Source: Spiroplasma sp. NBRC 100390
GTDB lineage: Bacteria; Bacillota_I; Bacilli_A; Mycoplasmatales; Mycoplasmataceae
Assembly: GCF_001886495.1 (NCBI RefSeq)
Contig: NZ_CP018022.1
Span: 434,001-498,000, forward strand
Direction: 5' to 3'
Length of the DNA stretch: 64,000 nucleotides
Position numbers and translations under genes: made by a program. Under the pieces are notes generated by a model, which ran no database searches, had not been told where the DNA came from, and was given only the letters and a program-made list of their open reading frames with translations. Each line of letters starts with the position of its first letter. The first letter of the stretch is position 1. Of this stretch, positions 24,861 to 33,745 are shown piece after piece.

Positions 24861-25300
24861 AATTATTTTATGTTATCTTTAAAAGGGATAATGTTATATC
24901 CTTTGATAGCAAACTTATCAAATTATATAAACCTATGATATTAATAACTTATTTAAAATAATTAGTTGTTAAACTTTTTATCACGATAATAACAAATTTT
25001 ATAAACTAGAAAAACTATCATATCTAAAAATATTAAAATTATTAAATATTAATTAATAACAATATTAATGGAGGAATTAGTTTTTATGAAAAAGGTTTTA
25101 GCATTGTTAAATGCATTAGTAATTACAACAGTTGGTGTGGGGTCAATTGTTAGTTGTCAAAAAGTTAATAATGATAATAATATTCAAGTATCAATTGCAA
25201 CAGAAAATTTAACAGCTTTTTTTGCTACAAATAAGACATTTGTGTATAAGAGGGAGTTCTTTTTTAAGGATGAATCACTTCAATCTGAAGAAGATACTGA
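24861..25300 (+). repeat. Direct repeat copy 2
   Basis: Matches 23731-24170 at a 1130-bp offset. The identical leader contains AAAGGGATA-ATGT-TATATCCTTT, a possible hairpin terminator of the preceding gene present in both copies. Confidence 0.85.
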
Positions 25301-25721
25301 ATGAATTCAATATGGTTGAGTATCAATTCTTTACACGGTGATAATTGATAATACATTTGGGCAAGTGTTTAATGCATATTTTATTTATTTGCCTAATGAA
25401 TTTATTACAAAAAATAATATTAATTTTAGTCAAGAAAATTTTGAAAATAATAATTCAGAAATTTTAAAGGCAATTTCAGAAAATTATTTTAAAACTTTTT
25501 CTAATGATGAAAAAACTGACAAGTGATTTTATTATGAGATAAAAATTAAAGTTGTTGATAATAGTTATGAGTATTTAGGGAAAATGCCAGTTGTTCTTCT
25601 CAAAGGGGGGCAGGCAAAGGCAAACTTAACTTTTTCTTGTTTAAATAATGATCAAATAACAACGATAAGAGATGTTGAACTATGAATGGATAACCGTAAT
25701 CGGCAATTTCTTAAATGATAA
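25086..25721 (+). CDS. Shortened paralogue of the 23956 lipoprotein
   Basis: A 211-aa prolipoprotein whose first 70 residues are almost identical to the gene at 23956, including the lipobox IVSC. After EEDTE it diverges: the 295-aa middle is reduced, and the ITKNNINF stretch rejoins late motifs (NSYEYLGKMPV and RDVELWMDN). The protein therefore looks like a deletion derivative of the paralogue. It stays open with four TGA Trp codons. Its last codons overlap the start of the next gene by 7 nt, so it may drive translation of the large exported protein. Confidence 0.7.
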
Positions 25722-28501
25722 ATAAATTTTTTAAATCAAAAAAAATTATTTCTATTTTTAGTTCAATCTCTATTTTAAGTGTTGGGACTGTTGTTGCCAC
25801 TGTTTCAACAATAGTTGCTGGTAATCAAACAGCTAATAATATTTATTATAAATTTGATGGCAATGTTTTTCGTTCAAAGGCTGCTTTAATGCAATATGTT
25901 AATAATAATATGAAAGTAGAATCATATGCGACACAAAATAATTACTACTTATATAACAATAAAAGTTATGGTATGAATGATTTTTATAAATTAGAAGCTG
26001 ATATGATGACGAAAACACCAATTAAGGAATATCATACTTATCGGAATCCCTATAATTATCTAATTGATAGTGGTAATCAAGTATCGAATCAAGTTTTAAC
26101 ATCAAATGTTGATCAGTTGACTTCTGCTTATAAAGGAAAAGATGGTAATGCTTATTTATCAAAAAGAGAGGCAATTAGTACTTATACTGACTATCAAAAG
26201 GTTTATCAATTGGGAAATAGCAACAATAATGATACTAATATTGAATTTCAAAATAAATATGAAGCAATTCAATATTTAGAAAATATTGTTACAAAAAACT
26301 TAGAAAATAATATTCAGACCGATACTTATGAAATGGCGGGGTCTTTCTTTACAAAAGATCAAATTTTATCATGATTAAAATCAACAACTGATATTCAATA
26401 TAATTATAATGGTTATCGGTGATCAAAACTAAGTCATCCTGACTTATCACAAATGTCATTAACAGAGAATGATAAGAAGAATTATATTAAACCTTATCAA
26501 CCGCCAAAGCAAACTTATTGGTTAAATCTTGATTCACGTGGATTGAATGGAAATTTTTCAGGACCATTGTATATTGAAACTGATGATTCGTTTACCACTC
26601 TAACAGATAAGTTAAAACATAATTGGAAAAAAGTTGGTTCAAATACAATTAATGTAATAATGCAGCCATTAGTCCTTCTTTCAAGTTTTATTAATACACA
26701 ATTAAATTCCAAAGAAGAAGATGAAGAGAATAGTTGAGATATTAAGAGAGATTTCTCTGATTTTACTGAAGAAGGTGAGAAAAAATTTGAAGATTTATTT
26801 TATACAGCTAATAGAATCAAATTTTATGATTTAGATAATAGTTTAAAATATTTTGAAATTAAAAAGCAATTAAACCAAGTTGTCGGAATGAGTCGGTGGG
26901 AGAAAACATTGGCCTTTTTACAAAGAGTTTATAATTATACGTTAACTGTTAATCATTCGGGGAATGAAACTAATGCTGTGGCATTTATTAACTTGTTACG
27001 AACAATGTTAAAAAATGTAATTAAAAGTAATACTGATATGTTTCAGGATTATTTAGATGATATTTTTCAAGATCAACATGGATTAACATCAACACAAGAG
27101 TTAATGTTAACAGATATTATTAACATGTTTATTAATCCGTCAAAGTTTATGTATGAATCACCATCAAAAGTAAATAAATTAACTACTGTAATTAATAAGA
27201 TTCAACAAATTGGGAATAACATTTTTAATGCTTATCATAAGATTCAACAAATTCATCGCAATGGACAAATAATATCTGAAGCAGAAATTAGTTTGGTATT
27301 ATCATCGTATCAAGCTTATTTAGAAAATGGCCAAAAGTATTATGTAATTGGTGGGGAAAAATTAAGTTCTCAGAAAGCATATCAGGAAGTTGCAAAAGTT
27401 TTACGTGGTAATTTAACAATTAGTAAAGATGGTTCAAAAATTGATATGACAGCAGCTTTTAAACCAGTATCAAAGATTGCAAAATTTGCGGGTAAAATTG
27501 TGGCAGGAATGCAATTTGCAAAGGCAGTTTGAGATATTGGTAATATTGTTTCACCTTTTAAATTTAATACTTATGAAAATGATTTAGGGAAAGGTCAAAA
27601 GTTATATTATCAAACAACTGAAATTGAAATTCCAATTCTAAATATTCCAATTTCAGGCACTAATCCAAGTAATGTTGTTAATTTAACTCCAATTGAATTA
27701 TTTTCAAATGGAAGTATTGTTAACGATGATGAAGAAATTAAACCAGATACAATGTTTGCTGTATTAGGAAGCATAATTGTAGGGCGAAACAAGGCAGAAA
27801 AGTACTTAAAAGAATATATTTTGGCAAATCCAAGTCAATTTCTATCAACCCGTTCCTATTATATTAATGTTATGAGTCAACAAGAAACGAGTGAAATTAC
27901 AGTTGATAAAGATAATCCCGATGATGCTTTACAAAAACTAAAACAGTTTACAAATCAGATTTTTGAAAAATATTTTGCGAAGCAAGTAGTAAAAATGTAT
28001 TTTGATGGAATTAATGCTTTCTTTAATAATCCTATTGATGCAAAAAATAGTTTAAAAACAAAGATCACAAATAATCAATTTATTATTAAATATAAGTTTA
28101 CTGATTTAGAAGGAATTACAAAATATTATGATGATGAAGCAACATTGCTTCGTGAGCAAAATCATTATATTGAGAATAATGTTTTACTATCAAAAACAAT
28201 TTTACAAAGTGATTTAATTAGAACAATTCGCTTTGATAAATTAACCCATCAGGTTGGAGCAACAAGTAAAGTTTATAGTGTTATTTTTAATGGGCAAGAA
28301 CGATATTTTATAACCGCTAATGATGCTAAAAATTATGTTTATCGTAATTCGGATATTGTTTTAAAAACTGATAAAGTAATTAATTATCATGTTTTCTTTG
28401 GTGATTTACAGTTTAATAGTGAAAGTGATTTTTATAAATGAGTTAAAAACAATACTAATCAGGTTAATGGTAGAGGGAAGGTGTCGCAAAATGGCAATTA
28501 A
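25715..28501 (+). CDS. Large exported protein with short YxF/S-A repeats (hypothetical)
   Basis: A 928-aa protein with an N-terminal signal-anchor (IISIFSSISILSVGTVVATV) and no lipobox. It carries degenerate modules of about 35-45 residues of the form Y-x-h-x-G-x-x-F/Y-x-S/T-x-x-x-A-x-x-Y/h: NIYYKFDGNVFRSKAALMQY, GKDGNAYLSKREAISTY, YEMAGSFFTKDQILSWL, VIFNGQERYFITANDAKNYV and VFFGDLQFNSESDFYKWV. Modules cluster at both ends, separated by a helical middle (300-600). Six TGA Trp codons. The start overlaps the lipoprotein upstream by 7 nt; the next start lies 11 nt inside its 3' end. No family recognised; adhesin-like. Confidence 0.75.
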
Positions 28502-30572
28502 TTTATTGAAGGGTTTACTTGGAAGTTTAATTTTAACAGCAACCCCAGTTGGGACAACAATGAGTACAGTTCCTGATTATAGTGCTGATGTTATTTCACC
28601 AGAGGGTGCCTTATTTAAGATGATTAAAAATTCATCAACAACAGTTGACATGAAAACAGAATGAAATTATGATGGTCAAAAATTTTATTCACAACAAGAA
28701 CTAGACAGTTATATTATGCAAAATAATAAAGTTGAAACAATTCAAACATCATCTAATCCAGGAAAAATTATTAATGATTATCAATATCGAACATTAGATC
28801 CAACCAAGGTCTATGATATTGATTTTAATAATTACCAATTAATTTACCGTGATGCTTATGGAAATGCGACTTTATCAAAAGATATTGCTTTAGAGACTTA
28901 TACAAAAAATATTAATTTAAAATATAGTTATGATGCTATTAATTGATTTGATTCTCCCGAAGAAGCAAAAGCTGGTTTCATTTATAAGGGTGGATTACAT
29001 AAGTCACTTTACTATTATGTTAATGGCCGCTATTATAATGCTTTTAATCATGCTGATCAGAAAGCATTAAAAAGTGTTTTAACTGAAGGATATAATTTAG
29101 CACCAAGTGATTTTACGGGTCAAATTCCTATTTATGGGACCCGTGATAGTTTGCGTAATGTTGTAGCAAATAATTTTCGAACAACTTGAACAAATGTTAA
29201 TAATATTAATGAGCCATTAAATTATGCTAATTTCTTAGCAACAACAACGAGTCAAACAATTTTTATTTCCCCAGGAAATGATAATTTAATTAAGGTTCGT
29301 GTTAATGGTGGTAGTCAAAAAACCTATTATGCTGGAGAAACAGTCGAAATCTTTGATCCAGAACGGAAGTTTACTAATTGGGATTTTACTTACCGTAGTG
29401 GTTGAAAACCGCATGTTCAAATGGATGATTGAATTGGTTCGGTTGGTAAGTATTATTATACAAGAACTTTTTCTAGTGGTAATAATACTTATGAATTAAC
29501 TTACTTACCAGTTAAATCAGGAAGTGCTTGGCATTTCAATAATTTTAACTGAGAGCGAGTTGCGACAAGTAATAAATATGATTCAACAATGATGTTATAT
29601 GATAATGATGTTAGAAGCGTAACGAAAAAAGAATTATATCGTTGAGAAAATTTGCCAATTAATATTACAAGACCAAGTGAGATTCCAACCCAATATGTTC
29701 GGCAAGCTTATGACTTATGATTCAATAACTTTTATGAAGAAAAATTTTTAAATTTAGATAAAGTTGATAAAAATGGTGTTCCTTATAATGAATATGGTGT
29801 TAAAGCAGATATTCTTTATGATGTTAATGGCCAACAAGGATATAAATATTCCTTAAATGAAAGTGCTAAATATTATGAAGAAACTCTAAAACCTCAAATT
29901 TTAGTAGGACCAACAGCAACAAATGCTGATGGAGAAATAACTTATAAACTACGAGATGACTTTTATGCGACAAAATCACAATTAGATGACTATCTTTTTT
30001 TAACTGGAATCGTTGATACGCGTTTAATGTATACTTATCTTGATGTCCAAGATATCTCTTCGCAAGATGGATTAGCGTTAGCAATGACAGAAGCTGATGC
30101 GCGTGAAAAACAGTTTCAATATGAAAAAGAAATTTTATTAAAAAAATACTTTGCTTTTGATGTTTTTGGTAATAGTGTTATTTCAGCGGAAAGTAGAGAA
30201 GATGCAATTGCAAAATTACATCAAACAATTACTTTAACAGGAAAGTATATTAATCGTAAAGAAATTGCTAGTTGAGATAATGGGGTAATGTCTTATGATA
30301 ATATTATTCAAGATGGTGTTTATAATGTTTATCGCATTTATAGTCAGCTTCGTGCTGACCAAGGTTTAATTCCCTATATTTATTTTGATAGTTATAATTC
30401 CGCGTTAGTAGCAATTAAAGCGGGTATTAACCATGAAATTAAAATCACAACAACAACCGTTAATGTCTACTTGTATGTTTATCTTGATAAGAACGGGAAC
30501 AAACACTCATATACTTATACCAGCGATGAAGAAATTAATGCAATTGTTGCAGAAATTATGCAATTAAGCTAA
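28491..30572 (+). CDS. Second large exported repeat protein (hypothetical)
   Basis: A 693-aa protein with signal peptide MAINLLKGLLGSLILTATPV. Repeats the module type of its neighbour: WNYDGQKFYSQQELDSYIM, IYRDAYGNATLSKDIALETY, YDAINWFDSPEEAKAGFIY, YYVNGRYYNAFNHADQKAL, YFDSYNSALVAIKAG. A central stretch has an aromatic-rich region (TNWDFTYRSGWKPHVQMDD). Seven TGA Trp codons. AGAGGGAAGG at about 28473 is the ribosome site; its ATG overlaps the upstream gene by 11 nt. The stop TAA overlaps the next ATG by one base, so the three genes are translationally coupled. Confidence 0.75.
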
Positions 30573-32083
30573 TGTTTATTGAATTAAAATTAAAGAAAAT
30601 TCTGCCAATATTAAGCAGAATTATTCTTTGTTTATTAATTGTTGGTGGTATTCTTAGTGCTTTATTTTTGTTTTCACAAAATGATGTTAATTATAGTATT
30701 AGTGGTTTAATTATTGTTGCTTTTTTAGGGATAATCACAATTATTTTATTATTAGGAAATTTAACGCAAAGACAACCAAAACAACAAATTTCACAAGACA
30801 AGGTTCTTTATTTTTTAACTTTATTTTTCCTTGTTCTTTTTCTAACATTGTTTATTAGTTCATATGGTTTATACGGCTTATGGTTTCTTCTATTTAAAGT
30901 CTTATCAACAGTTTATTTAATAGGGTTAGTTTTTCTCTTTGCTGTAATATTAACATTCTTTCTAAAAGATCTTGGTTATGTTGTTACTTTTTGTGTGCCA
31001 ATTTTACTATATCCGTTTATTTTAATAAATCATAGTAAAACTTATTTGGCGTTGGGGGCCATTCTTGGTGGTGTTATTTTAGGAAACATTATTGTTACTT
31101 ATCTTAACAATGATTTTTCAAAACAAGGAATGAAACGAGAATTTATTAAACAAATTTTTAGGGGTAATTTTAAGATTTTTGTTTTAACATTTATCGTTAG
31201 TTTAATTTTATTTTTTGTTTTAGGAAATGATAGTTATGCTTTATTTAGTCCAACAATTAATTTTAATGAAAAATCATTATTAATTAATTTAAGTGCTTTT
31301 ATTATCTTTATTATTTTATTAGTTTTTCAACTCAAACCACTAATTGTTTTTCTTCTTACTATAATAATCCAAACGATTACTGCTTTTATTTCAAATCTAT
31401 GAGCAGTAGGTAGTTCATATAATTTTATTTCATTTTTATTATTTCAGCAAAACGAAATATTAACTAATTTAAGTTTATACTTATATAGTTATTGTTTAGC
31501 AATAGTATGATTTATGATTTTATTGGTATTAGCTAGTTTTAAAACAATGTATTGTCAATTTATGACTAATTTAGCAGTAATTCATTATCTTAATGATAAA
31601 TTTAACAAGATTGGAGTTCTTGTTAATTATCAATATAAATATCTTTTTTATCAAAAAACTTGAATTGATTTATTAACATATCATAATCAAAGTAAAACAT
31701 TAATAACAAATCTTTTAAATGATGAAAATAGTATCAACCCTCGTTTTGTTCAAACAACAGTTATATATCAGTTGTATTATCAAACACTACAGATATTGTT
31801 ACCATTTTCAATTAATTTATTATGAGCATTATTTTGAACAAGTAATGGGTTTGAAATTACAATGTTAACAACATATTGATGATTTCTAAAAGGAGCATGA
31901 GTTTTTTATTTTTTAATTATTTTATTAACTCTTTTTATTTTCTTTCCAAATGTGCAAGACTATTTTTTTCGTAACTGATGAAGTTGATTAGTTTATCGTA
32001 TTAAATTGACTTTGTTTTCAACGACTAAAAAAGGAAAAGCACGACAAACAAGGAAGAAATGAAATCAGAATCGTAAAAAATAA
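30572..32083 (+). CDS. Polytopic membrane protein of the surface cluster
   Basis: A 503-aa integral membrane protein with about ten hydrophobic segments (e.g. IILCLLIVGGILSALFLF, VFLFAVILTFFLKDLG, FIVSLILFFVLG, IIFIILLVFQLKPLIVFLL) and a strongly basic C-terminus ending QTRKKWNQNRKK. No ATP-binding or known permease signature. ATG overlaps the previous stop (TAATG), which implies 1:1 synthesis with the large exported proteins. It might be the membrane partner, translocator or anchor for them; this is inference. Seven or more TGA Trp codons. A terminator follows. Confidence 0.75.
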
Positions 32084-32111
32084 AAAAGGAGGAAAATTAT
32101 GCTCCTTTTTT
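32082..32111 (+). terminator. Terminator after the surface cluster
   Basis: AAAAAAGGAG (32082-32091) pairs with CTCCTTTTTT (32102-32111), with a 10-nt loop. Confidence 0.8.
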
Positions 32112-32201: not shown

Positions 32202-32705
32202 GTGCCACGGAAATTAGTCATTGATAACTTGGCTGTTGGCAATCAGTTTTTAATCCCCGTTGATATTGAAAATAAGGTTATTATTAGTGATGTTTATTTT
32301 AATTTGTTATGTTATGATCGAACAGCCATTGCTCGGAAAAAAGGGTACTTATTATGAGAACATAAAATAATTTTAAAATTGTTTGATTATTATAATATTG
32401 ATAATATTTCAAAAATAACAATTATTGCGGGTTTAAAGTTTTTAAATGAAAAAGTAAAAACCGAAACAACATACCTTGCTTGTTATGATGGAATTAGTCA
32501 AAGCAGTGCCTTAGCATTTATTTATTTGGTAGCAAATAAGGTGATTCCATTATTACCGTTTGAAGAAGCAATTGTTTATTTTTTAACAAATTACTATTCG
32601 TTAATGAAGTTAAATCAAGGGATATATGATTTTTTGAAACAACATTATCCTTATACAACTTTAAACGAATTAGCTCAAGCAAAGTGGAAAGACTTTCATG
32701 GCTAA
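32202..32705 (+). CDS. Dual-specificity phosphatase homologue lacking the catalytic Arg
   Basis: A 167-aa protein of DSP size and layout. It has the signature loop at ACYDGISQSSALAFIYLV (about 88-105), which aligns with HCxxGxSRSATLVIAYL of DSPs. The nucleophile Cys is kept, but His before it is Ala and the P-loop Arg is Gln. Other parts, such as the NLAVGNQF start resembling LYVGN, are DSP-like. Start is GTG 32202 placed 4 nt after GGTAGGAG; an upstream ATG at 32169 has no site. Loss of Arg predicts little or no phosphatase activity, perhaps a phosphate-binding pseudophosphatase. It overlaps the next gene by 8 nt. Confidence 0.7.
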
Positions 32706-33447
32706 TTTACGAATTGAATTAGGAAGTTATACAGTTAAAATTTATCATCGAAATAAATGTTTGTTTAATAATCCAAATTTAATTATTTATGATCTTGATA
32801 CCGGATATTATTTATGAATGGGAAATCATGCCAAAGAACAGATGAAGGGAACTTTAAATATTGTTAGAACCCGTTTGTTAGAACAAGATAAGTTAGTTAA
32901 TTTAAAAAGTTTATTAATTTATCTTAATAATTTAGAATTAGATTTTTTAAAAAACCAGTTCTTTCTTGTTCATAATTTTTCTTGTACAGAAGCAGAACAA
33001 CTTGCAATTAAAACAAATTTTCCAAAACTTAAGTGAATATCCATTAAGCAACATTATGGGTTAATGTCACGAGCTAATCATTTTTATGTTGATGTTAAAA
33101 CAAGAAAAACAGTCATTTACCAGCGTAATACCAAAGATATTTTTAAATTAGATTATGGTTTAATTAATTTACAAGAATCTGTCCAGTCTTACCTTGCCCG
33201 AACTTTTAATGTTATGTTAGAACCGACCGAATTAATTACAATAATCCCAACGCTTTGTCAAGAAAAATGAACCTCATGAAAATTAAAAGCGATGAGTCTT
33301 GCTGAAGGAACTTTTGAAGATGTTGTTTTAACAGATTATGAGTCAGTAATGCGTGGTTTTTTACAGTTAAAACAAAAGATTAAAACATTAACGAAGGATG
33401 TATCAACTGTTGGGAATAGTAATTATAATCTTTTAGCAAATATTTAA
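32698..33447 (+). CDS. Degenerate MreB/actin-like protein
   Basis: A 249-aa protein that aligns by eye with the N-terminal two-thirds of MreB. LRIELGSYTVKIY matches the phosphate-1 segment (compare SMDLGTAYTLVY at 16977), LFNNPNLIIYDLDTGYYLWM then GNHAKEQMKG matches NEPSIVAYK..AVGNEAYKMIGK, and HFYVDVKTRKTVIYQRN then FKLDYGLINLQESVQSY matches the phosphate-2 and following strands. The GGGTT of phosphate-2 and the C-terminal adenosine motif are missing. It is thus likely non-ATPase. Starts 8 nt inside the phosphatase homologue, with which it is coupled. Alternatives: divergent FtsA-like or unrelated protein with chance similarity. Confidence 0.6.
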
Positions 33448-33580: not shown

Positions 33581-33745
33581 ATGGCTACTGTTGTTGTCAA
33601 AGCAGGAGAACCGCTAGACAAAGCTTTAAAGCGTTTTAACAAGGTTTCTTCGGTAAAACGAAAAGAAGCCCGCAAGCGAGAGCACTGAATGAGTAAAAAG
33701 GAAAAAAGACGCTATAAACAAGAGCAATCTCGTAGTTTTCGTTAA
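33581..33745 (+). CDS. rpsU: Ribosomal protein bS21
   Basis: A 54-aa basic protein of the S21 family: MATVVVKAGEPLDKALKRFN, then VKRKEARKREHWMSKKEKRR. S21 binds 16S rRNA near the Shine-Dalgarno interaction site of the 30S subunit. GGAG at 33567 precedes the ATG by 10 nt. One Trp codon is TGA. The C-terminus is short, as in Firmicutes. A promoter with TAGTAT (33541) or TATGAT (33531) lies upstream; the terminator at 33744 follows the stop and is shared with guaC. Confidence 0.95.

Follow-up and report, generated by a model that had tools for sequence, protein, structure and literature searches.

The MreB proteins of Spiroplasma have been studied as a minimal actin machine of helicity and swimming. 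Their genes number five to eight, according to a review and a genome paper, and a 2026 review makes no reference to a phosphatase or to any sixth, truncated or pseudo MreB. The family is represented by Pfam PF06723 and by structures of Spiroplasma MreB1–5 (PDB 7bvz, 7e1c) and of a Geobacillus MreB (8aam). Two further described systems are relevant here: the dual-specificity phosphatases (DSPs; PF00782) with the pseudophosphatase STYX, and the RpiR-regulated sugar PTS operons, whose EIIBC permeases are of the glucose/N-acetylglucosamine type. In the following, we describe a locus whose family has features of all three. It lies in a 64,000-nucleotide stretch of the genome of Spiroplasma sp. NBRC 100390 (NZ_CP018022.1, positions 434,001 to 498,000), hereafter the window, in whose numbering all coordinates are given.

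The gene in question (32698..33447, + strand) forms an open frame in genetic code 4, with four UGA codons read as tryptophan, and encodes a protein of 249 aa that we refer to as pseudo-MreB. A sequence-only reading of the window had called it a degenerate MreB/actin-like protein on account of three MreB backbone motifs, all of which are found in the product: LG-x6-Y as LGSYTVKIY, N-x-P as NNP and GN-x-A as GNHA. Searched as a single sequence, the protein matches MreBH in NCBIfam weakly (E 0.0013), while a Pfam search with it alone gives no match to PF06723 and a PDB search returns nothing meaningful; matches to AstB and gelsolin in these Pfam and PDB searches were judged to be due to chance. 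PF06723 does match four relatives of the window protein, with an E-value of 3e-4 at best. We therefore rely on a profile built from 13 family members (alignment A1; the window protein and 12 relatives, with all MreB left out), for which the top-ranking PDB matches are MreB structures (best E 1.8e-6). Aligned to the Spiroplasma MreBs with hhalign, this profile scores an E-value of 3.5e-8 over almost the full length (A1 positions 6–232 against MreB 5–258), and the family motifs keep the MreB register nearly throughout. The corresponding controls yield 0.59 for DnaK and, at best, 0.11 for 20 column-shuffled profiles; the window clade alone, with its three sequences, fails in the same alignment (E 0.11). 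The homology is thus missed by single-sequence Pfam and PDB searches, which taken alone would lead one to reject the MreB relationship wrongly.

The predicted structure points the same way. With A1 as input, AlphaFold models the window protein in an actin/MreB fold (pLDDT 92.3, pTM 0.83); the best 25 Foldseek rows for this model are all MreB or Mbl, with E-values from 4.9e-16, and VIA-align superimposes it on MreB residues 7–299 with a Z-score of 16.0 and an rmsd of 4.0 over 241 residues at 15% identity. The two checks proposed with the sequence-only reading, a profile search and a structure prediction, hence both led to MreB, and together with synteny they uphold the proposed identity: the product of this frame is a true MreB descendant. 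Sugar kinases share the actin fold, and descent from the ASKHA sugar kinases instead of MreB, with the PTS sugar as ligand, would suit the sugar operon context described below. However, the above-chance profile matches are all to MreB, as are the best Foldseek rows, and the motifs sit in MreB register over nearly the full length, so that such an origin is largely refuted and in our judgement extremely unlikely. Likewise, a phage or defence origin was set aside, as PHROGs and PADLOC matches were no more than weak and scattered and a viral structure search returned mainly Hsp70-like actin folds.

While pseudo-MreB resembles MreB in its fold, its profile and the motifs LG-x6-Y, N-x-P and G-x-x-A, it differs in the parts that handle the nucleotide. 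The phosphate-1 remnant (32716..32727, + strand) reads ELGS in place of DLGT. At the phosphate-2 site (33097..33111, + strand), the loss of GGGTT noted from the sequence is borne out, the aligned residues being KTRKT (in the context VDVKTRKT). The catalytic glutamate is gone, with no Glu-Glu in the aligned helix, and the adenosine motif GGGAL appears as NSNYN. None of the 13 family members keeps any of these four motifs (phosphate-1, phosphate-2, catalytic Glu helix, GGGA) unaltered, and judging from them, ATP hydrolysis by pseudo-MreB is very unlikely. By its defining motifs, the protein is therefore MreB-derived yet no functional MreB. The sequence-only reading erred, however, in assuming that the whole C-terminal third was missing: MreB has about 340 residues and the structural match extends to residue 299, which leaves only the last ~35–45 missing, and it is subdomain IA that is left incomplete.

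Directly upstream lies the gene of a 167-aa protein with a DSP fold (32202..32705, + strand; likely start GTG 32202 after AGGAG). The alternative mechanical start, ATG 32169, would add residues of which the first 10 are modelled with a pLDDT of ~39 and are missing from the relative in genome G005. Foldseek relates the model to DUSP15 (E 3.6e-6) and STYX (PDB 2r0b; E 2.5e-5). Its P-loop (32478..32501, + strand) reads A-C-Y-D-G-I-S-Q, compared with H-C-Q-L-G-V-S-R in active relatives: Cys105 of the HCx5R motif is kept, but His104 has become Ala and the P-loop Arg has become Gln111 (ACx5Q). The loop is ACYDGISQS in the window and ACYDGISQ(S/T) in its two orthologues, as opposed to HC-x5-RS in nine cassette members. 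Asp73, the likely general acid 32 residues before Cys105, is kept in the window and in G010 and replaced by Asn only in G005. Loss of the P-loop arginine should abolish phosphate binding in this phosphatase class. In the tree, the clade with the dead P-loop is nested within the active clade, beside Mesoplasma seiffertii (99/95), with two strongly divergent members (L011, L044) placed unsurely. Consequently, the term pseudophosphatase, already chosen from the sequence, is right, and the state is a derived one: the window protein is a DSP fold with a dead P-loop. With PF00782 and STYX it shares the fold, and its cassette relatives share HCx5RS; it differs in having kept the Cys without the P-loop Arg and His, in having a pseudo-actin as partner, and in a family setting that is a bacterial sugar operon. 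Distinct from this is another DSP family (HCxWGxNRSAS, 147–179 aa), which occurs in nearly all Spiroplasma genomes, usually once in each (e.g. G000:C1:538708-539160).

The two genes overlap by 8 bases (32698..32705, + strand), which makes translational coupling likely; the family as a whole shows either an overlap or a gap of a few bases. Upstream, a terminator-like hairpin (AAAAAAGGAG-GAAAATTATG-CTCCTTTTTT; 32082..32111, + strand), read directly and absent from the terminator-scan output, separates the pair from the gene of a 503-aa membrane protein, so that the pair is probably a transcription unit of its own. This 503-aa gene is the last of four overlapping or adjacent genes (25068-32083; 217, 928, 727 and 503 aa) with a surface or membrane look and no family matches; outside the three genomes with an intact pair, its only relatives are distant homologues in two more. 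An operon with these upstream genes was set aside, since the hairpin intervenes despite the common three-species distribution. On its other side, the pair is flanked by guaC; between them, a short ORF (33581-33745, + strand; MATVVVKAGEPLDKALKRFNKV...) looks like ribosomal protein S21 by eye.

Whole-genome searches for relatives place the family in a quite different context. Among 298 genomes sampled from the window's order, members occur only in the window's taxonomic family, and in a collection of named genomes the only true holders are two Mesoplasma. In 60 genomes of that taxonomic family, both proteins are present in 12, neither in 48 and one alone in 0 (Fisher p 7e-13, a value that ignores shared ancestry; truncated remnants were counted as absent, and the DSP of G042 is interrupted by a stop). 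All extended loci (8/8, including G010, L122), as well as M. grammopterae and M. seiffertii, carry the same cassette: an RpiR regulator (HTH_6/SIS), a PTS permease of the glucose/GlcNAc type (EIIC-EIIB), a DSP and pseudo-MreB. The ancestral cassette thus begins like other RpiR-regulated PTS operons, with regulator and permease, but ends with two added genes. The window pair, by contrast, has neither an RpiR regulator nor a PTS permease next to it. Within the window's genus, G010 alone has the cassette PTS gene, and this genome carries both a guaC-side pair and a cassette pair; other PTS genes of the genus are ~36% identical. At one locus, L115 (G042:C1:722000-733000), the cassette is decaying, with a split PTS gene, an interrupted phosphatase and an open pseudo-MreB frame. 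At another, L142/L121 (G041:C1:225500-231000), a long CRISPR-like direct-repeat array with 66-base spacing lies immediately upstream of the cassette.

Beside guaC, intact orthologues of the window gene exist in G010 (82% identity) and G005 (64%), so that 3/14 species of the genus hold an intact gene. Four more (G012, G008, G007 and G002; L004–L007) have truncated copies, where deletions have removed the phosphatase and the 5' part of the gene; several of these copies lie near transposase-like genes and three adjoin guaC. The remaining seven genomes show no member above the MreB background. The four truncated copies indicate that the function is dispensable. These remnants, together with the dead phosphatase, might suggest that the pair is a functionless, decaying relic in the window's lineage. 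Against this, the frames are open in three species at 64–86% identity, and all three retain the identical P-loop change. Furthermore, dN/dS is 0.16–0.23 for the pseudophosphatase and 0.19–0.35 for pseudo-MreB, resembling the neighbouring membrane gene (0.22–0.35). The window pair is under purifying selection, and we regard the relic explanation as quite unlikely.

The sequence-only reading had also proposed that a non-hydrolysing actin-like subunit could act on the MreB ribbon behind the spiroplasma helix, as a cap or a modulator. MreB descent and the predicted fold would fit this role, and several strong MreB genes in the window genome offer possible targets. On the other hand, the genomic context of the family is sugar uptake, not mreB, and the intact gene is present in 3/14 species of the genus, all of which have 5–6 PF06723 matches; the majority of the helical relatives whose MreB set is complete have no copy or a broken one. 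Pseudo-MreB is therefore not needed for helical shape. Family members also occur in Mesoplasma without canonical MreB1–5, the coccoid Mesoplasma clade having lost mreB and fib (PMC6117150). In the cassette holders G024, G054 and G055, the strong PF06723 matches are confined to DnaK and to a divergent copy beside dnaN. The latter is a full-length (~322 aa) degenerate MreB of Mesoplasma-type genomes (G052, G055, G054 and G024; L102, L103, L104 and L105), encoded between dnaN and rnmV/ksgA near the presumed replication origin, with PF06723 E-values of 1e-40 to 1e-53 and GGGTT replaced. Given this copy, 'MreB-free' can refer only to canonical MreB. It shares with pseudo-MreB an altered phosphate-2 motif and hosts without canonical MreB, but is full length, nearer to MreB (hhalign E 1.2e-33) and without a phosphatase partner; the pseudo-MreB family itself aligns to it less well (0.00042) than to MreB. 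A ribbon modulator should track MreB and helicity, and pseudo-MreB tracks neither, which argues against the ribbon cap as the ancestral role. Hence, of the earlier proposal, the degenerate MreB with its pseudophosphatase stands, while the modulation of the ribbon does not, in view of the PTS cassette and of the Mesoplasma hosts; as an overall explanation, we hold it to be highly unlikely. The window protein may nevertheless have a secondary interaction with MreB in its own species.

Probably, then, pseudo-MreB has been re-used for sugar-linked signalling and not for cell shape. The phosphatase accompanies it throughout, and in the ancestral arrangement the sugar permease does so too, so that a non-catalytic partner role in PTS control appears most likely. 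More specifically, we give an about even chance to the explanation that the pseudo-actin is an obligate non-catalytic partner of the DSP in a sugar-PTS cassette, and that the window pair is a relocated, catalytically dead binding module. On this view, a copy of MreB that could no longer bind ATP and lacked the end of subdomain IA would have become the obligate partner of a small dual-specificity-type phosphatase. In the ancestral setting, the RpiR/SIS regulator would sense a sugar phosphate and turn on PTS EIIBC, phosphatase and pseudo-MreB, the last of which would most likely bind the phosphatase and hold it at its target, which would be the permease of the PTS, one of its phosphoproteins or the sugar phosphate that is taken up. 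In the window lineage, the pair would have been relocated beside guaC, where the phosphatase lost the arginine and histidine of its P-loop, and would persist as a non-catalytic binding module that purifying selection maintains. We infer the physical complex of phosphatase and pseudo-MreB, its PTS-regulating role and the binding mode of the window pair alike. Some points speak against the partner model: gene pairing can mirror joint transfer instead of joint function, no PTS gene adjoins the window pair, and G042 has retained an open pseudo-MreB frame despite its interrupted DSP. A related possibility is that pseudo-MreB assembles or binds the membrane without nucleotide, serving as a clustering scaffold for the PTS permease under the control of the phosphatase. 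The actin-like body is complete in the AlphaFold model and cassette members are always accompanied by a PTS permease, but with all nucleotide motifs lost, classical filament dynamics seem unlikely, and we consider the scaffold rather doubtful.

A search of the openly accessible literature found no paper that joins Spiroplasma with dual-specificity phosphatases, or actin-like proteins with DSPs and PTS operons. Under the partner model, pseudo-MreB would be a further, unrecognised branch of MreB, one that gave up its cytoskeletal role and its ATPase and remained linked to a phosphatase and a sugar transporter, and thereby a tractable example of an actin turning into the partner of a pseudo-enzyme. 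It would also hint at DSP-type control of the PTS by phosphorylation in bacteria with very small genomes. In its general form, that MreB-derived, nucleotide-free pseudo-actins serve as a regulatory subunit coupling a DSP to the sugar PTS in Spiroplasma and Mesoplasma, including cells without canonical MreB, we put this forward tentatively, as somewhat short of an even prospect. If true, it would mean that a bacterial actin has switched from the cytoskeleton to metabolic signalling.
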